A DNA stretch of 42,693 nt, from positions 1-42,693 of the IMG/VR virus record IMGVR_UViG_3300034095_000192; one strand, given 5' to 3'. A program made the position numbers and the translations under genes. The notes beneath the pieces are model-generated. The model worked only from the letters and a program-made list of their open reading frames with translations. It did not search any database and was not told the DNA's origin. Within the stretch, counting starts at the first letter, position 1. Every line of letters begins with the position of its first letter. This DNA comes from a virus. Positions 12,496 to 37,967 of this stretch are shown in pieces.

Positions 12496-15400
12496 CTACC
12501 TGCTTACGCCTTTTTCATCAGCTCGTTTTATTGCCCGATTTGCCAGCTTATTAATCTTTTCTTGAAGTACCCGTATACGTGTAGCTTTTTCATCAGGTGA
12601 CATTTCAGTATCAGGCGTATTCTTTATACGAGCTATACGCCCTTGCATAGTTCCGATCTGTTCCCCTGTTGCTCCTAGTAGAGGAGCCATCTTACGTAGT
12701 TTCTCATTCTCAGGTTCGTTCCTTAAAGCCTTAGCTTCCTCTTTATCCCCAACTTGCTTATAAGCTCTAATACCATTAACAATTTGTTCTGCTGACTTAG
12801 CTAAGGCGTAGTAATCACTAAGAGCTTTGTCTTTAGCTGGAGCAGTTACTACCCCTTTCCATAAGAACTTTTCTCCTAACTCTTTCGTGGGAGCAGATAC
12901 CCCCGTAACACTAGAGATATAGGCATCCGCCAACAAAGCAGATAGTGCCCACGCCTCTGTAAACCAACCTTTACCTAAATGCTCTATATCATTAGGGGAC
13001 ATATTTAAAAAGCTTGGTAACCCCCCTGCTATTTTCTCAGCTAAAGGAGTTGCGTGTGCTGTACGTTGGTTTAAAGGCAGTCTACTTTCTGTAAAACTAT
13101 TAATAGGGTTGCCTGTATAAAGGTCATGGTTCATTAATACTTCCCCTACAGGCTTAACTGTTTGAGGGAGTATTGGAGGTACCGATAGAGCCTTAAACGC
13201 CTCCCACAACGCTTTCCTACCCCCTTTAGGTGTAAGCGATCCCCTACTTACACGCACCAGTATTTCAGGGATAACTTTAAATAAAAACCCCGCTTCAAAA
13301 TGGATAGGTATTTTTATAAAAGGGTTATCTTTATTTCCTGTAGGTATTAGCCAACTAGTTATCCAGTCGGTGGATTTCCTATACTCCTCATCATCGTCCA
13401 TCTGTAGAGCGTACAATATAGAAGCTGTTGTTACCATAGCCGCATTAGCATAGAAGTGCTTTCTAACAGTAGCCGCATCTTTTACGTTTAAATTACCGTA
13501 ACCCCCCGGAATTGCGGCTCTAGCAAGGGTGTCCATACCATTTAACGTAGAAGCAAAGAAAGGGACAGAGTCTCGCATAGCCGCATGATTCCTAGACTTT
13601 CCTTTTTTAGAGAAGTTTATTAATTCCTTAGCTTGCATCGCAGCAAAATTCTTACGTTGTTGAGGGTCTACTATCCCACGTTTAGCTGCCAGCTTAAGAG
13701 CCTTTTCATAAACAGCAACCCTAGTACCTGCATCGGACGCTTCATGTACGTGTACAATAAAGTCCCTAAGCCAACCTGATACCCCACGTTTAGTTGCTAT
13801 GCTTTTTACAAGTTGTGTTGTATCTGTTAAGGTATCTACGGCACCCGTAATACCCCTTCTCTGTAGCTCGTTATACCCCTCAGAACGGCGGGCTACAATT
13901 TTACCCATGTGATATAAAGCGTGTAGGGGTGTAATAAGGCCCGACTGCGTTACTAAGTTTGCCATCAAAGGGTCCCGTATAAGCTGACGGTACCAGTATA
14001 CGGGGGTGGTCAAGGTAACTTTCCTAAAAACATTTGCGTGTGCTTTAGCTACTTTTCTCATCCACCCCGGCTGAAGGGGTATCATAGTTTGGAATGCTTC
14101 AAACGCTAGAGTGTCCCCTATGTGGTAGTAAACATCCTCCCCATTCACCTTAAACTTAGTTGCCTGTGGGTCACTTCGGTCCTTCGTTTCATAAAAAAGA
14201 GTATCCGCAACTGCGTTTAACTGCATAGCCGCAGTCTGCCTTGCAATGTTTTGAGCCGCCGCCCCTGCCATAAGCGCAGAGTGCTTTACTAAGTTTTCTG
14301 CGACATTAACCGTTTGCTTACTCCCTTCACGTGATTTAACTTCCCAAGAATGTTTAGCCCCTAGTGAGAGCACCTCTACGTATTTAGAAGGGTCGTCAGA
14401 TAAATCTTCTATACTTTTATATAGGGGGATATAAGCAGGGTTTGATCGCCAATCATTGGCTGTAGTACTATTAATAATCCCTGCTTTTTCAAATAGGTCT
14501 ACATCTTTACGGAGCCTCTCAAATATATTATTCATGATGTCCCCTAGTCTAGGGTCTTCAATCAGTAACGCTTCAGTCAAGGCAATATCTTCTGGCGTAA
14601 CACGTTGTTCAGTACCCACACCTACTTCTAGTGTTTTAGTTAACCTATCAACATCATTTCTAAGCTTCTCCACTTGGTCTAGTAAGGAGTCACGTTTAGT
14701 CTTGTCTGTAGTAGTAGCCACAAGTGCTTCTTTCTTCTCTGCTTTTGCTATCTTAGCATCTATGTCAGCTTGTACGTCAACTGCAGATTTCTTACCATGC
14801 TTAGCGTATAGCTTATTAGAGGCTTCTTTTAACTGAGTGGCTCTAGTAGTAAGGGCTACTTTTTCTTTAGTAATGATGGATATAACACTCTTAAAGTCTT
14901 TTATTTGAACTGCATCTTTAGCAGTAACCGCAGCGGCAAGTGCCCTTCTTGCGTCTACTAACGCACCTGTTAGGTGATCTATATCCCCTTGTAGGACCTT
15001 TTCAAAATCTTTATATAACTTAGCATCAGCCCGGCGCTCTACATCTATACGGAGTATCTCTTTCCCAGCCACTACACGCAGAGCTGTGAAGAATGTTTTG
15101 CGGTTGTCCTTATACCCTAGTCCGTCAATAAGTTTAATATTATTATGCAAGTCTAGTCTAGGGTCGTCTACAGACATAAGAGTTCCGTCACCAGTTGTGT
15201 CTATATACCCCCTGCTATTACGCAACATATTGCTAAGGTTTCCTATTGACTGAAGTACGAAGTCTCCTCGCATCTTTCCTTTTGGGTCAAACATATCTAG
15301 CGGTTTCAATAAACGGCTTATCGCAGCTGAGTCATCTATCCACCCAGCCCGCAACTTAACTATATTGTCCCCTGTCATAAAACCAGAAACAGCCTCTCGG

Positions 15401-18400
15401 ATAACCCCACTTATACTTTTATCTGAAGTCTTAACAAGGCCCAAACCAACTAATGCTTTACCAATATCCTGTGCATCTTTAGTTGGTTTGATTGAATAAG
15501 ACGTACCTTCTTTACGAGCGGTTCGTACTGCAGTTTTAGACTCTCTGCGTAAGGCTTTAACAGCTAGGTGCCTAGCATCAGCTTCAGTTAGTTGTAGCTT
15601 CATACCCAAATGCATACGGGCAAAGTTCCTAACTGCAGATACAATCTTTTTAACGACAGGTAAGTTTGGAGCGTTCTCTACTAGATAAGCAAGTGCCTCA
15701 TGGTGGCGCAAGTGTGTAGGTGTATCTTTAGGAATAGAAGCACGAGCCTTATCAAAAACTTCCCCTACATTGTTCAGGGCTTGGTTTGCAATATCTTTGT
15801 ATACTTTAGACCCAACTAAGTTCTCCATACCTACATGGGTTCCCACCTCATGCAATGCTACGTTCTCTAGAGTCTCAGGCGTTAGCTTGTTAGCTACATA
15901 GTGAGTTACACCTTCAGCAGTAGTTAGCCCTTGCACGTTCGCAGGGTGTTTGCCTTCAGGTAGAGTCTCAGCAGTATCATGCATAACAGCCTTACCAGAT
16001 GCCACTAGGCGTTTCATCTCAGGTGATAAGGTCTTAGACAACGAAGCGGCGGTGTGTTCGGTAAGTTCAGAAGTAGGTGCTACTGATTGGTAATCATGCC
16101 CGCTATAGTCAAAATCACCAAAATCCATTTGTTCAGCTATATCGCTATCGTCCTCAAAATCATACATAGAGTCATCTGATAACGTCTTAGTTGTATCTTC
16201 TACATCTTCCTCTACATCTTCATCTACAACTTTCTTAGTTTTTTTAGCTTTCTTACCCTGCACTTCTAATAACTTTTTAGCTTCAGCTTCTTTGTTTTTC
16301 CTTAATACTTCAGCTGCGTCATCAGCTACGATCTTAGCATCTGCAGCTTCCTTAGCGGCTTTTTTATCAGCAAACCCTTGCACTATCAGTTGGTTCTTCT
16401 CATACTCACCAACTTCACCCTCATCAACAACACCATTTTTAGTCTTTGATTGACCGCGTTCTTTATTATATTCATCTATATAATCTGGATGGTACTTTCT
16501 CCACAAACCAGTTGACGCAGCGTTAAATAATTTGGACGTACTATTACCAAATCCTAGTTTATCAATAACATGAAGAGCCCCTTCCTCAGAAGGTTTTGTT
16601 AACGAGTCATATAATATTTTATTTAGTTCTTTAGAACCGTATTTGCTATTTAATAAGTCTGATAAATTGTTTTCAACTATATTAAAATGAGCTAGTGGGA
16701 CTGGAACCCCTGATTTATTGCGCCCAGTAAAGGTTATACTGCCTTTAACATAATCTACCGATACTTTTCCTTTATTTGCAGTTTCAAGATATAATACCTC
16801 CCCTCTATCTTGTGCATTTATGGCTTTTATATTATAGGTCTGTGCAGGATTATTTGAAGTTATATAAAGACCCCGACCTGCGGTATCTATAGAGGCTTCT
16901 CCTTTATCTGTTGTATGTTCGTAATGCTCAGCATACATCTCATCTCTAGGTATATATGAAACCCCTTCTACACCAACTTCACCCTCATCCTTCTTACCTG
17001 CTTTATCTATTACACTATCAATCCCTTGCTGGTTTATCTGTAGCCCTACACCTATTTTTTGTGCCGTAGGTGTTATAGCCTGTTCTATCTGTTTAGCTAC
17101 TCCTGAATGAGGCATATCTGGGTCTATATCTAAGCCCAGTCTTGTAGCAATATTATATAAAGCATCTATGTTAGTTTGAGAAGGTTCCCTAGTTTTTGAC
17201 TTTCTTATACTTGCATCATACTTATCTAACACAGTTTGTGACGCACTTATTAATGCAGGGGCTACTTCTTCTTTAGCGCCTGTTTCAATAGCTTCGATCC
17301 CTTGTCCTTCTGATTCCATTCCTTTGCCAACTTGGGTGATATCTTCAGCTGCTTGGCTTTCTTGGGATTGTGTGCTGCCATCGCCATTAATCGGGCTTGT
17401 GCTGGGGATTTGCTGGGCATCAGTTGTCTCTCCTAGTGTAGGTGTAGTTTGTCCTTGTTGTATTGCTTCCATGTAGTTCGGTAGTATTTTTGATTGCTCC
17501 TCTGTTATAGTACCTGCTCTTTTAAGTTCTGCAATAACAGGGGCTGTTATCTTTCTAATAGCTTCATGGTCAGCAGGGTTGTTAATATCCAAACCTTTAG
17601 ATGCAATATTTTTATATACTCCACTTTTTTTATGCAGTCCTAGCATATCTGTAACCCAAGTAGGCTCAGTCTTTACAGGCTTTACAGGCTTTTCTTTTTT
17701 CCCTCTTAGTATAGGTTCTTTCACAGCTACTACTGGTGCTCCTGCTACAACTTCTTCCACCCCTGCTACTACTGGTGGGCCACCTGCCGCTGCTTCAGCT
17801 ACACGTGCTCTTTCTTCAGGAGTGATAATTAAAGGATTTACTGGAGGTGCAGGTACTTCGCCTTGAGGGGGTACAGGTATCTCACCTGCTGGAGGGTTTA
17901 CGGGTGGTGGAGGTGGAGGAGGTGCTTGTTCTGTAGTACCTGCTATTTGACTAGCAGTGTTTGCACCACCACCCATGATAGCGCCCATAAGAGCGCCCTT
18001 CACACTTTCATCCTCAACACCGTCTAGTAAACCTTTGGGGTTGTCTGTAGCATAGTTCTGAGCCATTTGTTCTATGGCTGATTGAGGCGCTTCTTGGAAT
18101 ACACCTTCGCCTATCATAGATACTAGGGTAGACCTAAAGAACCCCGGAGTATTAGCAACATCCCCAAACTCTTGCAGTGCCATCTTCCTAGCGTTGCCTG
18201 AGAGAAGTATGTTGGGGTCAATACCCCCTAATGCCGTAGTAAGCTTAGCACCTGCAGCTCCAACTACACCCGTCCCAACTCCTGTAAGTAACGCCGCTTG
18301 GGTGTTTGCTCCTGTTGCTTCGCCTTCTGGGTTGGTAACTCTTAAGTTTTCTTTCTGAGCACCTGCACCTACACCTGCTTCACCTATACCTGCAGCAAAA

Positions 18401-19584
18401 TAAGGAGCAACTGCTGGTACTTTAGTTAAAACTTTACCTAACCCCATTAACCCTGCTTTAGCTATACCTGCACCACCTACCATTTGACCTGCAGACTCAC
18501 CTATAGCTGAAACTACTGCTGAGGGGTTATCTTTAGCGGCTTGTAGGACAGCTCTCCATCCATGAGCTGCAGCTAAGTTCTTAATGGCTTCTTGTTGTTG
18601 AGGAGAGTATTGCGTACTTAAGTACTCTTGCACTTTGTTGAGGTCAAGCCCTGCATCTTCAACGGCCCCCCCTAAATCTCCCGGTGTAAGAAGATCAGCT
18701 AAGCCTATAAAAGATTGACCTAGACCTACACCGCCTTTCATAGCGCCTACACCAATATCTTCCAATACCTTAGTACCACGACCTTCTGTTTCTTTTTTGG
18801 GTAGGGAGAAATCTATAGTAGGGTCTGCTTCTGAGGCTCGTTTAACAGCTTCTTCGTCTGACATATTATCAGGAACCCGTAATGTGCCCCCATTAGCTAA
18901 AGGTACTTCTCTTAGACCAACTGCATCTATACCGTGTGCTCTAGCATCTGCAATAGCTTGCTCTCTAGGCATACCAACAGGAGCATGTAAAGAACCCCCA
19001 TTAGCTAAAGGAATTTCATACATCTCCCCTTTAGGGCCTTCTTGTTCAGGAGGAGGCGCCCCACCTAGTACATTAGATACGTATAATTGTGTTTCTCTAG
19101 GAGTAGCTGATAGCCAGTTGTCCCCTGCTTTTCGTATAGCTTTATTAAGATTGCCTTCACCGTAGTTATAAGCAGCAACAGCCTTAGCCATATCACCGTT
19201 ATAATACTTAACCAAACCTGCCATCTTCTTACCAGCAGCATCAATAGATGCATACGGATCAAGTGCATCAACCCCATACTCTTTAGCAGTAGGAGGCATT
19301 AACTGCATCAAACCAGTAGCACCTGCAGGACTTACGGCATTAGGGTTGTACCTACTTTCATTGTAGCCTATAGTAGATAGTAAGCCTTCTGGTAATCCGT
19401 ATTGACCCTCAGCTTTTAGAAACGCTTCTCCGTATGAGGAGGCGGGACCTTGTTGGGGTTGAGGCATATACTGAGATATGTCCTCTTCAGGAAGTGCTTG
19501 TGTAGGAGTAGCAGGTTGTATTCCAAAAAGGTCTGCGGAAACAGCAGGGTTATAAGCAAAAGGATTTGATTCTGTATTAGCCAT
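12496..19584 (-). CDS. Giant polyvalent virion/ejection protein with lytic transglycosylase domain
   Basis: The product is 2362 residues. Residues about 50-175 are a lytic transglycosylase (YNES with catalytic E76, GLMQLMPPTA at 91-100, AAYNYGEGN at 137-145). Two similar 28-residue units follow (IPLANGGSLHAP, VPLANGGTLRVP). Next come a Gly/Ala-rich hydrophobic stretch (about 280-560) and a proline-rich linker. A region near 875-930 (GRGLYITSNNPAQTY) is weakly ADP-ribosyltransferase-like. An acidic/lysine-rich coiled coil then precedes a zincin-like motif HEVGTH (H1245, E1246, H1250) and an LPD38-like region near 1850 (PVYWYRQLIRDPLM). Such proteins are packaged and injected with DNA. It is the last gene of the late unit. 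Confidence 0.85.
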   Translation of the reverse strand: MANTESNPFAYNPAVSADLFGIQPATPTQALPEEDISQYMPQPQQGPASSYGEAFLKAEGQYGLPEGLLSTIGYNESRYNPNAVSPAGATGLMQLMPPTAKEYGVDALDPYASIDAAGKKMAGLVKYYNGDMAKAVAAYNYGEGNLNKAIRKAGDNWLSATPRETQLYVSNVLGGAPPPEQEGPKGEMYEIPLANGGSLHAPVGMPREQAIADARAHGIDAVGLREVPLANGGTLRVPDNMSDEEAVKRASEADPTIDFSLPKKETEGRGTKVLEDIGVGAMKGGVGLGQSFIGLADLLTPGDLGGAVEDAGLDLNKVQEYLSTQYSPQQQEAIKNLAAAHGWRAVLQAAKDNPSAVVSAIGESAGQMVGGAGIAKAGLMGLGKVLTKVPAVAPYFAAGIGEAGVGAGAQKENLRVTNPEGEATGANTQAALLTGVGTGVVGAAGAKLTTALGGIDPNILLSGNARKMALQEFGDVANTPGFFRSTLVSMIGEGVFQEAPQSAIEQMAQNYATDNPKGLLDGVEDESVKGALMGAIMGGGANTASQIAGTTEQAPPPPPPPVNPPAGEIPVPPQGEVPAPPVNPLIITPEERARVAEAAAGGPPVVAGVEEVVAGAPVVAVKEPILRGKKEKPVKPVKTEPTWVTDMLGLHKKSGVYKNIASKGLDINNPADHEAIRKITAPVIAELKRAGTITEEQSKILPNYMEAIQQGQTTPTLGETTDAQQIPSTSPINGDGSTQSQESQAAEDITQVGKGMESEGQGIEAIETGAKEEVAPALISASQTVLDKYDASIRKSKTREPSQTNIDALYNIATRLGLDIDPDMPHSGVAKQIEQAITPTAQKIGVGLQINQQGIDSVIDKAGKKDEGEVGVEGVSYIPRDEMYAEHYEHTTDKGEASIDTAGRGLYITSNNPAQTYNIKAINAQDRGEVLYLETANKGKVSVDYVKGSITFTGRNKSGVPVPLAHFNIVENNLSDLLNSKYGSKELNKILYDSLTKPSEEGALHVIDKLGFGNSTSKLFNAASTGLWRKYHPDYIDEYNKERGQSKTKNGVVDEGEVGEYEKNQLIVQGFADKKAAKEAADAKIVADDAAEVLRKNKEAEAKKLLEVQGKKAKKTKKVVDEDVEEDVEDTTKTLSDDSMYDFEDDSDIAEQMDFGDFDYSGHDYQSVAPTSELTEHTAASLSKTLSPEMKRLVASGKAVMHDTAETLPEGKHPANVQGLTTAEGVTHYVANKLTPETLENVALHEVGTHVGMENLVGSKVYKDIANQALNNVGEVFDKARASIPKDTPTHLRHHEALAYLVENAPNLPVVKKIVSAVRNFARMHLGMKLQLTEADARHLAVKALRRESKTAVRTARKEGTSYSIKPTKDAQDIGKALVGLGLVKTSDKSISGVIREAVSGFMTGDNIVKLRAGWIDDSAAISRLLKPLDMFDPKGKMRGDFVLQSIGNLSNMLRNSRGYIDTTGDGTLMSVDDPRLDLHNNIKLIDGLGYKDNRKTFFTALRVVAGKEILRIDVERRADAKLYKDFEKVLQGDIDHLTGALVDARRALAAAVTAKDAVQIKDFKSVISIITKEKVALTTRATQLKEASNKLYAKHGKKSAVDVQADIDAKIAKAEKKEALVATTTDKTKRDSLLDQVEKLRNDVDRLTKTLEVGVGTEQRVTPEDIALTEALLIEDPRLGDIMNNIFERLRKDVDLFEKAGIINSTTANDWRSNPAYIPLYKSIEDLSDDPSKYVEVLSLGAKHSWEVKSREGSKQTVNVAENLVKHSALMAGAAAQNIARQTAAMQLNAVADTLFYETKDRSDPQATKFKVNGEDVYYHIGDTLAFEAFQTMIPLQPGWMRKVAKAHANVFRKVTLTTPVYWYRQLIRDPLMANLVTQSGLITPLHALYHMGKIVARRSEGYNELQRRGITGAVDTLTDTTQLVKSIATKRGVSGWLRDFIVHVHEASDAGTRVAVYEKALKLAAKRGIVDPQQRKNFAAMQAKELINFSKKGKSRNHAAMRDSVPFFASTLNGMDTLARAAIPGGYGNLNVKDAATVRKHFYANAAMVTTASILYALQMDDDEEYRKSTDWITSWLIPTGNKDNPFIKIPIHFEAGFLFKVIPEILVRVSRGSLTPKGGRKALWEAFKALSVPPILPQTVKPVGEVLMNHDLYTGNPINSFTESRLPLNQRTAHATPLAEKIAGGLPSFLNMSPNDIEHLGKGWFTEAWALSALLADAYISSVTGVSAPTKELGEKFLWKGVVTAPAKDKALSDYYALAKSAEQIVNGIRAYKQVGDKEEAKALRNEPENEKLRKMAPLLGATGEQIGTMQGRIARIKNTPDTEMSPDEKATRIRVLQEKINKLANRAIKRADEKGVSR

Positions 19585-31799: not shown

Positions 31800-32246
31800 T
31801 TAGTTAGATGGCGGTACAAAAGCGTCTAGTTCTTGTTGTATAACATCTAACTGGTCTTGCGTAGTAGCAGCGATAATCTGAACATTAATTCTTTCATAAC
31901 GTGTCTGAGCATCTGCAACTACTTGTGCGTTGTAGTGAGTGTTAGGGTTGCCGTCAGTTTCAGTTTGCGCTTCATAAGCTACTACTTGGTTGAACTGACC
32001 TGAGTTTTGACCTTGAAGACCAGATTTACGATCAGCAACTGAAATATCAAATGTTGTCCATACAATTTCGACTGGATCTTTAGTACAATCATAGACTGGA
32101 CCATTTAAGCCTTGTTGGTAAGGTATAGTAGCAGGGATAATCTCAATAGCATTTCTCCAACCATCTTGACCTACTGGCACTGGAGGAGTAGTATCCCAAC
32201 ATTGAGCCATTTCACCATTTACTACTTGTACATATAATTGTGTCAT
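31800..32246 (-). CDS. Tail-fibre-associated hypothetical protein
   Basis: The product is 148 residues. It starts TQLYVQVVNGEMAQCWDT and ends in a helical region (DAQTRYERINVQIIAATT). The opening resembles small proteins encoded downstream of fibre genes, sometimes labelled fibre assembly proteins. It directly follows an RCC1 propeller gene, so a chaperone or accessory role for that fibre is plausible. There is no enzymatic motif. Confidence 0.5.
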   Translation of the reverse strand: MTQLYVQVVNGEMAQCWDTTPPVPVGQDGWRNAIEIIPATIPYQQGLNGPVYDCTKDPVEIVWTTFDISVADRKSGLQGQNSGQFNQVVAYEAQTETDGNPNTHYNAQVVADAQTRYERINVQIIAATTQDQLDVIQQELDAFVPPSN

Positions 32247-32277: not shown

Positions 32278-33498
32278 TTAAGAGAGGGTAGCTAGGGCGA
32301 ACTGATAACCACATGATACATTGGTCCAAGTGGTAAGTGCACCTACCTGTACAGGACTAGAACGATTAGTTATACTGCCTAAACCTAACTGCCCACTAGC
32401 GTTATTTCCCCAAGACCATAGAGTTCCGTCTGTTTTAGTTGCCAAAGCCCATTGGTAATTAGCTTTTATTTCAGACCAAGTTGTAAGTACACCTACTTGT
32501 TTGGGGCTTGAGTAGTTAGTTGTATTGCCTAGACCTAAGCCACCAAAACTATTAATCCCCCATGACCACAGGGTGCCATCTGTTTTAATGACTAGAGTAG
32601 ATGATTCTGCACATGCAATTTTAAGCCAAGTAGTAAGAGCCCCTACTTGTTTGGGGCTTGAGTAGTTAGTTGTATTGCCTAGACCTAACTGCCCCTGAGT
32701 ATTAAAGCCCCAAGACCATAAGGTGCCATCTGTTTTAGTCGCTATAGAATGGTAGAATCCTCCTGCTATGTTTAACCAAGTAGTAAGTGCACCTACTTGT
32801 ACAGGGCTGGAGCGGTTAGTTGTATTTCCTAAACCTAATTGTCCTTCATTATTATTTCCCCAAGACCAGAGAGTGCCGTCTGTTTTAGTTGCTATACTAT
32901 GATTGTTTCCACATGCTATAGTTAACCAATTTGTAAGAGCACCCACTTGATTTGGTGAAGATTTATAAGTGCCAGCACCTGAAGTACCTAAACCTAACTG
33001 TCCACTGTCATTAGACCCCCAAGACCATAGAGTACCATCTGTTTTAGTAGCTAAGACCCCCGCTGGACCTCTAAGAGTTTCTATTTTAGACCAAGTTGTA
33101 AGAGCACCTACTTGCTTAGGGCTTGAGTAGCTGGTGGTATTATTTAATCCTAATTGACCATTACCATTATACCCCCAAGACCAAAGAGTGCCATCTGTTT
33201 TAGTTGCTAGAGAAAATATTTGGGCACCTGCTATTTTAGACCAAGTAGTAAGGGCACCTACTTGCTTAGGGCTTGAGAAGTCAGTTGTATTACCTAGACC
33301 CAACATCCCAAAAACGTTATACCCCCAAGAATAAAGTTTATTAGGTGCTAAATTCCCAGCAGTGGGCCAGTTGCCTTGTTTTATCCAGTATCCCGCTTGC
33401 TCCATTGTCCATACACCTGAAGCAGAACTGTTTTGATACGGCCCAGCTGGTACTACAGGTGAGGATTTTATGACACCACCAGGATACTTAGTTGACAT
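32278..33498 (-). CDS. RCC1-repeat seven-bladed propeller adhesin 1
   Basis: The product is 406 residues. After an N-terminal anchor of about 50 residues (GVWTMEQAGYWIKQGNWPTA) come seven units of about 50 residues on the theme KTDGTLWSWG-xNxxG-QLGLGNTT-SSPxQVGALTTW. The final TTWTNVSCGYQFALATLS should close the ring on the first blade. RCC1-type propellers bind ligands on exposed loops. Here those loops vary while the scaffold hardly does. One blade carries a short insertion (GTSGAGTYKSSP). Its ATG directly follows the stop of the sulfotransferase gene, with no gap. Receptor binding is inferred. Confidence 0.85.
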   Translation of the reverse strand: MSTKYPGGVIKSSPVVPAGPYQNSSASGVWTMEQAGYWIKQGNWPTAGNLAPNKLYSWGYNVFGMLGLGNTTDFSSPKQVGALTTWSKIAGAQIFSLATKTDGTLWSWGYNGNGQLGLNNTTSYSSPKQVGALTTWSKIETLRGPAGVLATKTDGTLWSWGSNDSGQLGLGTSGAGTYKSSPNQVGALTNWLTIACGNNHSIATKTDGTLWSWGNNNEGQLGLGNTTNRSSPVQVGALTTWLNIAGGFYHSIATKTDGTLWSWGFNTQGQLGLGNTTNYSSPKQVGALTTWLKIACAESSTLVIKTDGTLWSWGINSFGGLGLGNTTNYSSPKQVGVLTTWSEIKANYQWALATKTDGTLWSWGNNASGQLGLGSITNRSSPVQVGALTTWTNVSCGYQFALATLS

Positions 33499-35244
33499 TT
33501 ATTTCTCCAATCTTTCTTTAATTAATGCAAATGGTGCATCCCACTCGCCAAAACTTTCTTGTCTTATTAAGGTCATACTGTCGTAGTATGGGGTTGCTTC
33601 GCCCTCTAGTGCATATAGGAAGTATGGCATAATAGGCGTCACCACCCACGTATCAATCCCCATAGCAGACGATAAGTGCGATACACTGGTACATGCCGAT
33701 ATAACCAAATCACAACTTGCTACAGCAGCTCTAGTATCTTCCCAACTATTTAGTGGTACTTGCTTAACCCACATAGGCGTAGCCTCTACACCAGCATCTC
33801 TTTGTAGACTTATAAACTCGTAGTTATCACTCTTAACAGCATCAAACATCAACTGGTAAGGAAAGGCTTTGTGGTGCTCATGTTCAAACTGTGTAGAGCC
33901 TTGCCACCTCAAACCAATACGTTTCTTTCTTCCCTTTATTGTAACAGGTTTAGGTAAATAAGGTGCACCACTAATATCTTCTAATTCAAAGCCTAACGGT
34001 ACTATAGCACTCATACCAGCAACCCAAAAGTCATGGTAGATACCAAACACCGCTTCGTGTTGAATAACGCTAGATACACCCTCTACATTAACGAATAAAG
34101 AAGCTAACTGACCAGAGCAAGCCACGATGACTTTACAGCCCTTCTCAGCGATATACTTAGCATATCTAACTTGGTGTATTTGATCGCCTAGACCGCCTTC
34201 AAGATTTAACAGCACAATCCCTTTAGTCTTGCCATCCCACTGCGGTGTAGGTACATCTGGTTGTTTATTACCAAAGACTCCAGCAATACGACCTCTATCT
34301 AATAACTGATAACCCTTTTGAATCTGACCTTGTCTTAAGAGATACCAACCACGATTATATGCAGCTCTGTTGTTACTTGGCTCTGTAGCCTCTAACTTCT
34401 GCGCTATGCGCCAGCCTTCAGCAAAATCACCTGTAGTAGATGCGGCTAGTTGTAAGTCCAAGTCATGTAAGTCAGGCATAGTCCTAGGCGTCTCTAACCA
34501 AAACTCAGGCTGGCAGAATGAGCCATAATAAGAACCTAATACATCTTTTGGGTTTTCGTTATGCTGTCTTTCAAGAACAGGTTTCACATCGTGCATACCT
34601 TTAGTGCCATGCAACTGCTCATCATCCTCAGCTACAGTAGAACCATCAATAGCATTAAAGTCGTATTCAAAATCAGGTAATTCTAAAAAGGTATGTATAC
34701 GTTGCAGTTGCTCTTTAGGATTAGAAATTAAGTCATCGTATTCAATAAATAAGAAGTTATCCGGTGCCGCTAAGTAACCGTTCTGTAGCGATATGTACGC
34801 AGCCTTTAAGTGATCCATCAACTGCCCAGATTCCATAAACTCATCTAAATCTTCGGGCTTAGCAATACGTACAAACGATGCCGCACAATCAGGTACAGAA
34901 CGAACAGTAGCAATAATCTTTGGTTGATGCCCTAATACTTGAGCCATAGCAGACATAATTTGAGCTATAGGCCAGCCACGTGACTTATCAATTATAACGG
35001 GCTTATCTACATCTTCATAAAAGGCATCAATAGCCCCACGCATAGTTTGAGCTAACTTCTTACGCTCAGGGTCATTTTCATTCAATAAACCCGCAGAATG
35101 CCACACATTCGCCAAACCATCTAGTGCATGAACCAACCCTGATGTAGTAGATACATGGGTGTCCGAATTTTGATTAAGTATAGCTGCAAGTACCGTAGAA
35201 CCTGAACGTGGCACACCTGATAGGAAATGTAGAGTCTTTTTCAT
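33499..35244 (-). CDS. Sulfotransferase-TPR-glycosyltransferase fusion protein
   Basis: The product is 581 residues. Residues 1-250 are a PAPS-dependent sulfotransferase: the 5'-phosphosulfate loop SGVPRSGSTVLAAIL (9-23), and TVRSVPDCAASFVR (113-126), where R115 and S123 fit the 3'-phosphate site. Residues about 262-320 look like one or two TPR helices. From 335 on, QWDGKTKGIVLLNLEGGLGD, KRIGLRWQGS (441-450) and CDLVISACTSVSHLSSAMG (511-529) match a GT-B glycosyltransferase of the GT9/TPR-associated kind. Targets could be virion adhesins or host surface glycan. It lies between two RCC1 adhesin genes and abuts adhesin 1. Confidence 0.85.
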   Translation of the reverse strand: MKKTLHFLSGVPRSGSTVLAAILNQNSDTHVSTTSGLVHALDGLANVWHSAGLLNENDPERKKLAQTMRGAIDAFYEDVDKPVIIDKSRGWPIAQIMSAMAQVLGHQPKIIATVRSVPDCAASFVRIAKPEDLDEFMESGQLMDHLKAAYISLQNGYLAAPDNFLFIEYDDLISNPKEQLQRIHTFLELPDFEYDFNAIDGSTVAEDDEQLHGTKGMHDVKPVLERQHNENPKDVLGSYYGSFCQPEFWLETPRTMPDLHDLDLQLAASTTGDFAEGWRIAQKLEATEPSNNRAAYNRGWYLLRQGQIQKGYQLLDRGRIAGVFGNKQPDVPTPQWDGKTKGIVLLNLEGGLGDQIHQVRYAKYIAEKGCKVIVACSGQLASLFVNVEGVSSVIQHEAVFGIYHDFWVAGMSAIVPLGFELEDISGAPYLPKPVTIKGRKKRIGLRWQGSTQFEHEHHKAFPYQLMFDAVKSDNYEFISLQRDAGVEATPMWVKQVPLNSWEDTRAAVASCDLVISACTSVSHLSSAMGIDTWVVTPIMPYFLYALEGEATPYYDSMTLIRQESFGEWDAPFALIKERLEK

Positions 35245-35296
35245 ATACTGATCTCGTTAGTGTTTTTACAAGGGTATATAGTATACATTAAATTAA
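35245..35296 (-). promoter_or_regulatory. AT-rich gap with possible -10 element upstream of the sulfotransferase gene
   Basis: This is one of the longest gaps in the late region and is strongly AT-rich. On the - strand it contains TATACT (35285-35280), about 35 bases before the ATG. It also contains the imperfect palindrome GTATATAGTATAC (35274-35286). No good -35 is present. It might allow separate expression of the enzyme, but the evidence is thin. Confidence 0.25.
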
Positions 35297-36445
35297 TTAA
35301 GAGAGGATGGCTATGGAGTAGTTATACCCGCTTGCAATTTTAGACCAAGTAGTTAGTGATCCCACTTGTTTAGGACTTGAATAAGCGTATGTAGTATTGC
35401 CTAACCCTAATTGCCCGCTATTATTAAAACCCCAAGACCAAAGAGTACCGTCTGTTTTGGTGACTATATTACTATACCTCCCACAAGATATACTCAACCA
35501 AGTTGTAAGTGCGCCTATTTGTTTAGGGCTAGAGTAGTAAGTCAAGTTGCCAAGACCTAATTGACCTAGATTATTTCTACCCCAAGACCATAACGTACCG
35601 TCTGTTTTAATTGCTAAACCATGTTGAACCCCCCCCGATATCTTAGACCAAGTTGTTAGGGTACCAATTTGGTTAGGTGAGGACCTATAAATTGTATTAC
35701 CTAACCCTAACTGCCCAGCATTGTTCTGCCCCCAAGACCAGAGAGTGCCATCGGTTTTAATAGCAAAGGATAAAGCTCCACCTGTGCCACAAGCAACGCT
35801 AGACCAAGTTGTAAGTGCACCTACTTGTACGGGGCTTGAACGGTTAATTGTATCCCCTATGCCTAATTGTCCAGCATTATTACTCCCCCAAGCCCATAAT
35901 GTACCATCTGTTTTAATGGCTAAATTGTGTTGAATACCGACTGATATTTTAGACCAACTTGTTAATGCCCCTATTTGTTTAGGGGAAGAGTAGTTAGTAA
36001 TGTTACCTAGTCCCAATTCCCCACTAGTATTAATCCCCCACGCCCAGAGAGTGCCATCAGTTTTAATAAGGGTACTGTGTTGGCTACCACATGATATTTT
36101 AGACCAAGTTGTAAGTGCGCCTACTTGTTTTGGGCTTGAGTAGTTGGTTGTGTTTCCTAGACCTAACTGTCCTTGAGCATTAGACCCCCAAGACCAAAGT
36201 GTGCCATCAGATTTAGTAGTTAAAGAAAATTCGCCCCCTCCTGCTATAATAGACCAAGTTGAAGCTCCTACTTGCACGGGGCTTGAACGGTTAGCTGTAT
36301 CACCTAGTCCTAATTGTCCGCTACTGTTCTGCCCCCAAGACCAAAGTCCCGGCAGACCTGTCCAAGTTCCCGCAGCTACGGCTTGCATTTGACTCTGTGG
36401 TGTCCACATGCCTGAATATTGTACGTATGGATAAATTACTGGCAT
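35297..36445 (-). CDS. RCC1-repeat seven-bladed propeller adhesin 2
   Basis: The product is 382 residues. A short anchor (YPYVQYSGMWTPQSQMQAV) is followed by seven blades with WSWG or WAWG cores, ending TTWSKIASGYNYSIAILS, which likely closes the ring. Compared with the other two copies it is more divergent, with IKTDGTLWAWG and GALTSW variants and a blade with an insertion (ACGTGGALSFA). The anchor differs from those of copies 1 and 3, so each copy may attach at its own place on the tail. The function as adhesin is inferred. Confidence 0.83.
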   Translation of the reverse strand: MPVIYPYVQYSGMWTPQSQMQAVAAGTWTGLPGLWSWGQNSSGQLGLGDTANRSSPVQVGASTWSIIAGGGEFSLTTKSDGTLWSWGSNAQGQLGLGNTTNYSSPKQVGALTTWSKISCGSQHSTLIKTDGTLWAWGINTSGELGLGNITNYSSPKQIGALTSWSKISVGIQHNLAIKTDGTLWAWGSNNAGQLGIGDTINRSSPVQVGALTTWSSVACGTGGALSFAIKTDGTLWSWGQNNAGQLGLGNTIYRSSPNQIGTLTTWSKISGGVQHGLAIKTDGTLWSWGRNNLGQLGLGNLTYYSSPKQIGALTTWLSISCGRYSNIVTKTDGTLWSWGFNNSGQLGLGNTTYAYSSPKQVGSLTTWSKIASGYNYSIAILS

Positions 36446-36454
36446 TGTATTTTC

Positions 36455-37585
36455 CTAATATTTGAGGGCTATTGAGAAAGAATCGCCATCTGCCACTTTA
36501 GACCACGTTGTAAGAGCACCAACTTGTTTGGGGCTTGAGTAGTCAGTTGTGTTATTTAAGCCTAACTGCCCACTACTGTTTAAACCCCAAGACCAGAGAG
36601 TACCATCAGTTTTAGTAGCTATGGTGTGGAAGCCTCCACCTGCAATATTTAACCAAGTTGTAAGTGCGCCCACCTGTACAGGACTAGAACGATTAGTTGC
36701 ATTGCCTAGACCTAATTGACCACTAGTATTTTGGCCCCAAGACCACAGAGTTCCGTTTGTTTTAGTTGCTAAAGAAAAGTTACCTCCACCTGCAATAGTA
36801 GACCACGTTGTAAGAGCACCTACTTGTTTTGGGCTTGAGTAGTAAGTTATGTTACCTAAACCTAATTGTCCAACATTATTAATCCCCCAAGACCAGAGTG
36901 TACCATCTGTTTTAGTTGCTATGGTGTGGTACCTTCCACATGCTATATTTAACCAAGTGGTTAATGCGCCTACTTGTACAGGACTAGAACGATTAGTTGC
37001 ATTGCCTAGACCTAATTGACCAGCATTATTTCTACCCCAAGACCACAGAGTTCCGTTTGTTTTAGTTGCTATACTATGAGAGCTCCCACATGCTATATTA
37101 GACCACGTTGTAAGAGCACCTACTTGTACAGGACTTGAACGATCAGTTGTATTGCCTAGGCCTAACTGACCGCTAGAATTAAATCCCCATGACCACAGGG
37201 TGCCATCTGTTTTAGTTGCTATGGTGTGATCCTGCCCAGCTGCTATGTTAAGCCAAGTTGTAAGTGCCCCTACTTGTTTTGGGCTTGAATAGACAGTGGT
37301 ATTGCCTAAGCCTAACTGACCATTGGTGTTTTGACCCCAAGACCAAAGAGTGCCGTCTGTTTTAGTTGCTAGAGTGTGGTTGCCCCCACCTGCAATAGTA
37401 GACCAAGTTGTTAATGCACCTACTTGTTTTGGACTTGAGTAGTAAGTTACATTACCTAGACCTAACTGCCCAAAAACATCATTCCCCCAAGTCCAAAGCT
37501 CATAGGTATAGGCACTGGGTGTAGGGGCAGCCAAAGGGTTAAAGAGTCCTGCTTGTATGAACCCTGCTAAATATCTTTGCGACAT
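36455..37585 (-). CDS. RCC1-repeat seven-bladed propeller adhesin 3
   Basis: The product is 376 residues. The anchor is about 30 residues (MSQRYLAGFIQAGLFNPLAA), then seven blades, the most regular of the three copies. Blades differ mainly at xNxxG and at the loop between the TTW strand and the LATK strand (GGGNHT, AGQDHT, CGSSHS, CGRYHT, GGGFHT, DGDSFS). Two blades two units apart share long identical DNA blocks. It is the first RCC1 gene to be transcribed and follows a small virion protein. Nothing suggests an enzyme; receptor binding is inferred. Confidence 0.85.
   Translation of the reverse strand: MSQRYLAGFIQAGLFNPLAAPTPSAYTYELWTWGNDVFGQLGLGNVTYYSSPKQVGALTTWSTIAGGGNHTLATKTDGTLWSWGQNTNGQLGLGNTTVYSSPKQVGALTTWLNIAAGQDHTIATKTDGTLWSWGFNSSGQLGLGNTTDRSSPVQVGALTTWSNIACGSSHSIATKTNGTLWSWGRNNAGQLGLGNATNRSSPVQVGALTTWLNIACGRYHTIATKTDGTLWSWGINNVGQLGLGNITYYSSPKQVGALTTWSTIAGGGNFSLATKTNGTLWSWGQNTSGQLGLGNATNRSSPVQVGALTTWLNIAGGGFHTIATKTDGTLWSWGLNSSGQLGLNNTTDYSSPKQVGALTTWSKVADGDSFSIALKY
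36675..37127 (-). repeat. Near-identical blade repeats with variable patches, 300 bp apart
   Basis: Three blocks are identical at 300-bp offset: 36675-36722 with 36975-37022 (48 bp), 36735-36771 with 37035-37071 (37 bp) and 36799-36827 with 37099-37127 (29 bp). Between them, 36723-36734 and 36772-36798 differ from their partners at about 20 of 39 positions. The patches encode the xNxxG turn and the loop before the LATK strand. Confidence 0.9.
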
Positions 37586-37595
37586 TTCAGTTTCC

Positions 37596-37967
37596 TTATG
37601 TTATTTCTTCCCAAGAAGCTGTTACCACCAACGCAGTAGCTGTACCAGCAGTAGCACCTATAGACTTATCTTCAAGCAGATAGAACGCTGTAGTCTTGTC
37701 AGTTACGATCAATGAAGCATACGCTGGTACTGAGATAGCTGAAGCTATTGGAAATGCTGTACCACCTAGAGCCGCTGCGCTGTACACGTTGATAGTGATG
37801 TTAGCCGCTGAAGCAGATGTGTTAGCTACGACAATAGAGTCTATTTTATAGACCTTGCTGCTTGCAGCCGCATTACTCGCTACAGAAGTCGCAGCAGTTG
37901 TAGTCAGTGAAGTTGTACTGGTGTTACCATTAATTACGGTAACATTAACTATATTTGGGTTTGCCAT
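37596..37967 (-). CDS. Small virion structural protein
   Basis: The product is 123 residues and beta-rich (VYKIDSIVVANTSASAANIT, then ISVPAYASLIVTDK and ALVVTASWEEIT). I recognise this pattern from structural proteins of aquatic phages, probably an Ig-like or jelly-roll domain. The start is low-complexity Thr/Ser. It lies between a fibre-like gene and the first RCC1 adhesin, suggesting a tail or decoration role. Confidence 0.6.
   Translation of the reverse strand: MANPNIVNVTVINGNTSTTSLTTTAATSVASNAAASSKVYKIDSIVVANTSASAANITINVYSAAALGGTAFPIASAISVPAYASLIVTDKTTAFYLLEDKSIGATAGTATALVVTASWEEIT

Follow-up and report, generated by a model that had tools for sequence, protein, structure and literature searches.

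The gene at positions 33499 to 35244 (minus strand) of the virus record analysed here encodes a 581-residue protein that joins a sulfotransferase, TPR helices and a GT-B domain, and it lies in a block of genes for RCC1 beta-propeller proteins, as do nearly all of its relatives in other viral contigs. We consider it probable, at roughly 60%, that this fusion enzyme modifies the phage's own RCC1 adhesins with a sugar and a sulfate group. The fusion, its near-obligate link to RCC1 genes and the linked donor supply are new, in that no description of them was found in the open-access literature searched.

The fusion gene and its RCC1 neighbourhood

The window (i.e., the whole record of 42,693 bases) carries genes for a polymerase, an exonuclease, a helicase and a primase on the plus strand of its left part and genes for virion proteins on the minus strand of its right part. 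The latter include an SU10-type adaptor and a 2,362-residue protein (12496-19584, minus strand) with an N-terminal SLT transglycosylase domain and a C-terminal LPD38 domain, which resembles the internal virion proteins of podoviruses. Neither tRNAs nor terminal repeats were found in the window, and a profile search of it gave no donor-synthesis, methyltransferase or homing-endonuclease genes.

The fusion is an intact open reading frame with an ATG start; its sulfotransferase half (residues 1-252) is encoded at 34489-35244, two TPR hairpins (residues 258-322) at 34279-34473 and a heptosyltransferase-like GT-B domain (residues 335-581) at 33502-34242. The genes around it are on the same (minus) strand. 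Immediately downstream, the start codon of a gene for a 406-residue RCC1 propeller protein (32278-33498) abuts the fusion stop codon (TAA-ATG, zero spacer), and beyond it lies a gene for a small protein of 148 residues (31800-32246) with no Pfam or PHROG match. Upstream, a gap of 52 bases (35245-35296) separates the fusion start codon from the end of a gene for a second RCC1 protein (382 residues; 35297-36445), which is preceded by a third (376 residues; 36455-37585) and by a gene for a conserved small protein (37596-37967) that is syntenic in many relatives and also has no Pfam or PHROG match. The preliminary description of this stretch had placed the fusion between RCC1 genes, one of them adjoining without a spacer, and had read the reading frame as a sulfotransferase joined to TPR helices and a GT-B domain. 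Both statements were borne out, the latter by a profile match, invariant residues and an AF2 model with its fold matches; the GT-B range given there (residues 441-529), however, covers only the C-lobe of a domain that extends from approximately 335 to 581.

A search of viral contigs, followed by profile annotation, yielded 80 loci in a first scan and further loci with more divergent queries. The fusion is encoded in 180 loci, 100 of which are non-redundant, and 33 lineages (<82% identity) have conserved it; we thus rejected the idea that it is a one-off or an assembly artefact. Compared to close relatives, the fusion gene shows dN/dS values of 0.06-0.11, with both halves under purifying selection. 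RCC1-propeller genes are located within 4 kb of the fusion in 96 of the 100 non-redundant loci and in 31 of the 33 lineages (<82% identity), and in 89 of the loci the distance is 300 bases or less on one or both sides; the nearest RCC1-fusion pairs are on the same strand in all 151 cases. As RCC1-like genes occur in only 35 of 50,697 INPHARED records, this linkage is not a background effect. The possibility raised earlier that the fusion might be common in phages with no link to RCC1 genes is thus answered by a fusion that is common but RCC1-linked. The typical gene order is RCC1 - RCC1 - fusion - RCC1 - small protein - donor genes - lysis genes. Among the four loci with no RCC1 gene in the 4 kb, L123 carries one further upstream, the contig of L114 begins inside the fusion gene, and in L069 and L070 the upstream place is taken by a gene with a weak Kelch match (E = 0.0016, below the cut-off). 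RCC1 genes also adjoin stand-alone relatives of the GT half in 10 of 13 lineages; of the remaining three, two start 220 bases or less from a contig end and one is cellular. In many relatives, and not in the window, probable homing endonucleases (L007:2664-3470 and 23 other ORFs, cluster u2, with a NUMOD3 motif and a GIY-YIG-like start) lie between the fusion and the RCC1 genes; such genes seem to insert preferentially into the RCC1/fusion block.

In a quick tree of the GT half, which contains some long branches, the fused proteins need three state changes, which can be read as a single fusion event and two cases in which the sulfotransferase half was lost. That the fused proteins form one strict clade was rejected (p = 0.0002), as two stand-alone proteins are nested among them. 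Versions with both halves as separate genes are found in S-SRM01, AG-345-E08, L195, L196 and L250. A contig from the MAG of a small-genome organism (L086; JAUSIP010000006) carries cysD-cysN-cysC directly before a stand-alone sulfotransferase gene, followed by genes for a stand-alone TPR-GT and a methyltransferase, and, by its gene content, represents an unfused version with the whole PAPS pathway. This cluster also has a family-2 glycosyltransferase, methyltransferases and TPR proteins and may serve protein decoration in a bacterium with a small genome. Further modification genes in fusion clusters (L048:6561-7959 and L278) encode a second, stand-alone sulfotransferase, a DUF6445 protein and a small glycosyltransferase-like protein, and a 2OG-Fe(II) oxygenase is also present in S-SRM01-like phages.

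The two halves of the protein and their nearest relatives

The N-terminal half matches Pfam Sulfotransfer_3 (PF13469) at residues 7-192 (E = 1.5e-14; 55.2 bits against a cut-off of 27) as well as PHROG 27463 (phrog_27463), a family of unknown function. The 5'-PSB loop, G10-x-P-R-S-G-S-T17, is invariant among 22 aligned sequences (homologues 54-94% identical to the window protein), as are K87, R115 and S123; the spacing of 8 residues from R115 to S123, corresponding to the 3'-phosphate-binding Arg...Ser of PAPS sulfotransferases, is kept in the same 22. The best fold match is tyrosylprotein sulfotransferase (TPST), and a GVPRSG-[ST]-T loop is common to TPST1/2 and the phage protein. In TPST the Glu of the CGEETR segment is the catalytic base, whereas the aligned segment of the phage protein reads HVSTTSG, of which VSTTSG is invariant across the fusion family; the catalytic Glu segment is thus not conserved. 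Overall, the N-terminal half is very probably a PAPS-dependent sulfotransferase, the activity being predicted.

In the AF2 models, four helices at residues 261-320 form two TPR hairpins; a sequence profile matches designed consensus TPR proteins, and Pfam gives only a weak match to TPR_16 in the window protein. A first model of the whole protein was of modest confidence (pLDDT 78, pTM 0.55). The reading of a GT-B fold rests not on that model but on a second one, of residues 258-581 (mean pLDDT 95.5, pTM 0.92), in which the GT-B domain is complete and for which the input alignment was built without rows from phage records. The best PDB folds found by Foldseek for the GT half were TibC (E = 2.4e-5), SPY, HepII (1psw), OGT and WaaC (2h1h), with 3tov also among the best. 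As the TM scores of the GT9-type folds (1psw, 2h1h and 3tov) were 0.44-0.52 and the fold matches were remote in sequence (11-15% identity), the modelled resemblance to heptosyltransferases is one at the level of the fold. No Pfam family matches the GT half of the window protein; PF01075 (heptosyltransferase) is matched weakly by 9 of 33 TPR-GT homologues (best E = 0.01, below the Pfam cut-off), and a TPR-GT sequence profile searched against the PDB returned TPR proteins and chance matches and no glycosyltransferase, a relationship seen by the fold search only. D354 of the GGLGD motif, a candidate counterpart of the catalytic Asp in the N-lobe GD motif (D13 in WaaC, D110 in TibC), is invariant in the 33 homologues. 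The C-lobe motif reads A/S-C-T-S-x-x-H with an invariant C518, so that the acidic residue of D-x-G-x-x-H, the C-lobe motif of GT9 enzymes, is replaced by Cys. The GT half is quite likely an active glycosyltransferase, and the earlier concern that one half or the other might not be a transferase finds no echo in the profile match (N-terminal half) or in the fold matches (both halves), all of which give transferases.

One might still propose that one or both halves are non-enzymatic and that the TPR-GT part acts on the propellers as a chaperone or assembly factor, as the sequence of the GT half is far from known glycosyltransferases and finds no Pfam match, and as tail-fibre genes are often adjoined by dedicated chaperones. 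This explanation appears very unlikely to us, given the invariance of the PAPS-binding residues and GT motifs, the purifying selection on both halves and the co-occurrence of donor genes with the module in a set of loci anchored on HldD (see below).

TibC, the top PDB match, is a protein heptosyltransferase whose substrate is a repetitive adhesin; its base is D110, R286, W305, T226 and K230 bind the donor, and a four-cysteine iron finger is required for activity (PMC4358343). The GT half has the GT-B heptosyltransferase fold in common with TibC, both are encoded beside a repetitive adhesin, and relatives of the phage gene have linked ADP-heptose genes. Conversely, helical TPR hairpins stand in place of the N-terminal beta-barrel of TibC, the iron finger is absent (C511 and C518 are the only cysteines in the C-lobe), and the fusion is phage-borne, joined to a sulfotransferase and associated with a propeller instead of a beta-helix adhesin. 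As both the iron finger and the beta-barrel are absent, the GT half is not a member of the TibC family. Likeness to WaaC and HepII (GT9, PF01075) extends to the fold, the weak profile matches in homologues and, putatively, the GGxGD motif with its invariant Asp, but the profile matches stay below the Pfam cut-off, the residue before the conserved His is changed, and the TPR domain and the adhesin context are particular to the phage protein. OGT and SPY (GT41) have TPR helices followed by a GT-B domain, as the fusion does; their TPR superhelix is long compared to the two hairpins found here, and their TM scores are lower than those of the GT9 structures.

Parallels also come from cyanophages. 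The cultivated Synechococcus phage S-SRM01 encodes homologues of both halves, gp338 (TPR protein) and gp345 (sulfotransferase), in a tail-fibre/RCC1 cluster, where, unlike in the fusion, they are separate genes with other modification genes between them; no mention of a sulfotransferase, chromosome condensation or heptose was found in the S-SRM01 paper (PMC8557907). In Synechococcus phage BUCT-ZZ01 the TPR-GT (UTS52179) adjoins an RCC1 gene, as in the fusion loci, but is fused to a methyltransferase-like domain and not to a sulfotransferase. The open-access literature on phage sulfotransferases and tail fibres, on phage ADP-heptose glycosyltransferases as auxiliary metabolic genes, on viral cysC together with a sulfotransferase, and on phage-encoded glycosyltransferases and virions gave no direct precedent.

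Candidate acceptors and donor genes

Each of the three RCC1 genes of the window matches PF00415 (E < 1e-78) in 7 stretches, i.e., 7 blades. In relatives with a fusion 93-98% identical to that of the window, the RCC1 proteins share 60-74% identity with those of the window, as compared to 84-100% for most neighbour proteins. In one relative (L241), three N-terminal anchor segments of RCC1 proteins (best local alignment scores not reached in 500 shuffles) carry Lcl_C domains in place of the propellers (L241:4095-6440); this locus has a stand-alone sulfotransferase, an APS kinase and heptose genes, with no TPR-GT in view. The divergence and the domain swap would fit variable, modular receptor-binding adhesins. 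Because they are variable and domain-swapped, and because in S-SRM01 their genes come after the long tail fibre gene, the RCC1 proteins are likely to be carried on the virion. An N-T-T and Y-S-S-P loop of the RCC1 repeats was considered as an acceptor site and dropped, as the pattern used to collect the repeats itself imposed much of the conservation.

Downstream of the fusion, relatives carry a gene of the APS kinase family (a cluster of 46 ORFs from the first 80 loci), which in L071 matches NCBIfam apsK TIGR00455 (E = 5.8e-16; 58.7 bits against a cut-off of 138.7) and in L064 matches PF01583 (31.8 bits, above the cut-off of 21.1). An APS-kinase-like form in L064 (L064:4898-5749) is long and fused to a nucleotidyltransferase domain resembling NMN adenylyltransferase; it might produce APS out of ATP and sulfate. 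Accompanied by a cupin gene, there are also genes for an HldC-type heptose-1-phosphate adenylyltransferase (TIGR02199, E = 1.9e-52), a short HldA-type heptose kinase (TIGR02198, E = 6.5e-31), each family being the best match although below its equivalog cut-off, and an HldD-type ADP-heptose epimerase (TIGR02197, E = 1.1e-58, below the equivalog cut-off; PDB 1eq2, E = 7e-44). GmhA and GmhB were not found among the heptose genes of the relatives. Between the cupin gene and HldA, L241 encodes a 102-residue protein (L241:9014-9322) with no Pfam match and, by eye, an N-terminal DxDGT motif like that of HAD phosphatases, which could be the missing heptose bisphosphate phosphatase. In the marine virus AG-345-O18 a sulfotransferase gene lies beside HldC, HldA, cupin and HldD genes. 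Donor genes are missing from many fusion loci, HldD being located within 8 kb of the fusion in 22 of 100; as the window has none, its host would have to supply both donors.

Co-occurrence was assessed in 32 non-redundant contigs that had been selected by HldD alone. Sulfotransferase and APS kinase were both present in 12, sulfotransferase only in 3, kinase only in 0 and neither in 17 (p = 2e-6), and RCC1 and TPR-GT were both present in 15 and both absent from 17, with no contig having one of the two (p = 2e-9); as shared ancestry was not removed, both p values are too strong. APS kinase thus tracks the sulfotransferase, and RCC1 tracks the TPR-GT. As it never occurs without RCC1 in this set, the TPR-GT appears to be the RCC1-specific part, and the sulfotransferase is also found with other adhesins (e.g., in L241). 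Approximately half of the HldD-anchored loci are without RCC1 and TPR-GT, and L241 keeps heptose genes with no TPR-GT in view, which indicates that the heptose genes also serve something else. Compact cupin-HldD-HldC-HldA cassettes occur in other phages (L248-L274, e.g., L261:9419-11893 and L274:9624-11893) among genes that are, by eye, replication-like, with no RCC1 or TPR-GT within approximately 10 kb. On balance, the donor of the GT half is probably ADP-heptose.

A different target would be the host surface, with the GT9-like half adding heptose or another sugar to host LPS and the sulfotransferase capping it; binding of other phages, or of the phage's own progeny, to the infected cell or its debris would thereby be prevented. 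The nearest sequence family, PF01075, consists mostly of LPS heptosyltransferases, HepII and WaaC are among the fold matches, in bacteria the ADP-heptose genes belong to the LPS-core genes, and RCC1 is lacking from several phages that carry them, all of which would agree with such a role. We nevertheless consider it unlikely: the gene is placed inside the adhesin block and not with host-takeover genes, it is coupled to RCC1 at the level of lineages, the TPR-GT is present in 15 of 15 HldD-anchored loci with RCC1 and in 0 of 17 without, and the nearest folds are a protein sulfotransferase and a protein heptosyltransferase. It is similarly improbable that the enzyme modifies another part of the virion (the tail or the small neighbour protein) or makes a small sulfated glycoside, with the RCC1 neighbourhood reflecting shared late expression only. 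In 79 of the 100 loci, a homologue of the 148-residue protein is located no more than 4 kb from the fusion, and the L066/L068-L070 group has kept the fusion in the absence of RCC1, its upstream gene having only the weak Kelch match mentioned above, yet stand-alone GT-half relatives, too, are mostly found beside RCC1 genes, and the linkage holds across phages of differing gene content, including a T4-like cyanophage.

The preliminary description had offered the adhesins and the host surface as targets. Of these, decoration of the adhesins is favoured because of the RCC1 linkage, the protein-modifying nearest folds (TPST, TibC and SPY/OGT) and the tail-fibre/RCC1 cluster of S-SRM01 with both halves; as that description did, we infer the target, and an RCC1 adhesin is rather likely to be the acceptor. 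Overall, the chemistry is well supported and the donor sugar moderately so, and for the target the argument comes from context.

A proposed decoration pathway and its meaning for the phages

We propose that the RCC1 beta-propeller adhesins would be modified as they are made by a two-headed enzyme, the TPR hairpins of which would hold or position the repetitive propeller protein. In the presumed order of steps, the GT-B half would transfer a sugar, most likely heptose from ADP-heptose (or a similar sugar), onto Ser or Thr of the RCC1 protein, and the sulfotransferase half would use PAPS to place sulfate on this sugar or on a nearby side chain. Some relatives would make PAPS and ADP-heptose with their own APS kinase and HldA, HldC and HldD, and the phage of the window would draw both donors from its host. 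The benefit may be a changed or tuned adhesive surface, or protection of the adhesin by shielding. The wider proposal that phages run a dedicated pathway for modification of virion adhesins, in which the fused enzyme heptosylates and sulfates RCC1 propellers, in some cases with donors from phage genes of the same cluster, is put forward tentatively, as a possibility with slightly less than even chances.

Some phages are known to encode glycosyltransferases that modify virion proteins; those of actinobacteriophages, for example, act on the phage's own virion proteins. To our knowledge, this self-glycosylation involves neither sulfation nor a linked donor pathway, and sulfated adhesins are not known to us from any phage. 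It would be unusual for a phage to have a protein-decoration pathway of cellular type together with a supply of the donors. The proposal assigns viral APS-kinase and heptose genes a definite role that can be tested: if it is true, viral cysC-like and "LPS-type" heptose genes, which are usually read as host or auxiliary metabolism, would in part be virion-decoration genes. Moreover, the receptor-binding proteins of abundant uncultured phages could then not be judged from sequence or structure prediction alone, as their binding surface may bear anionic sugars.
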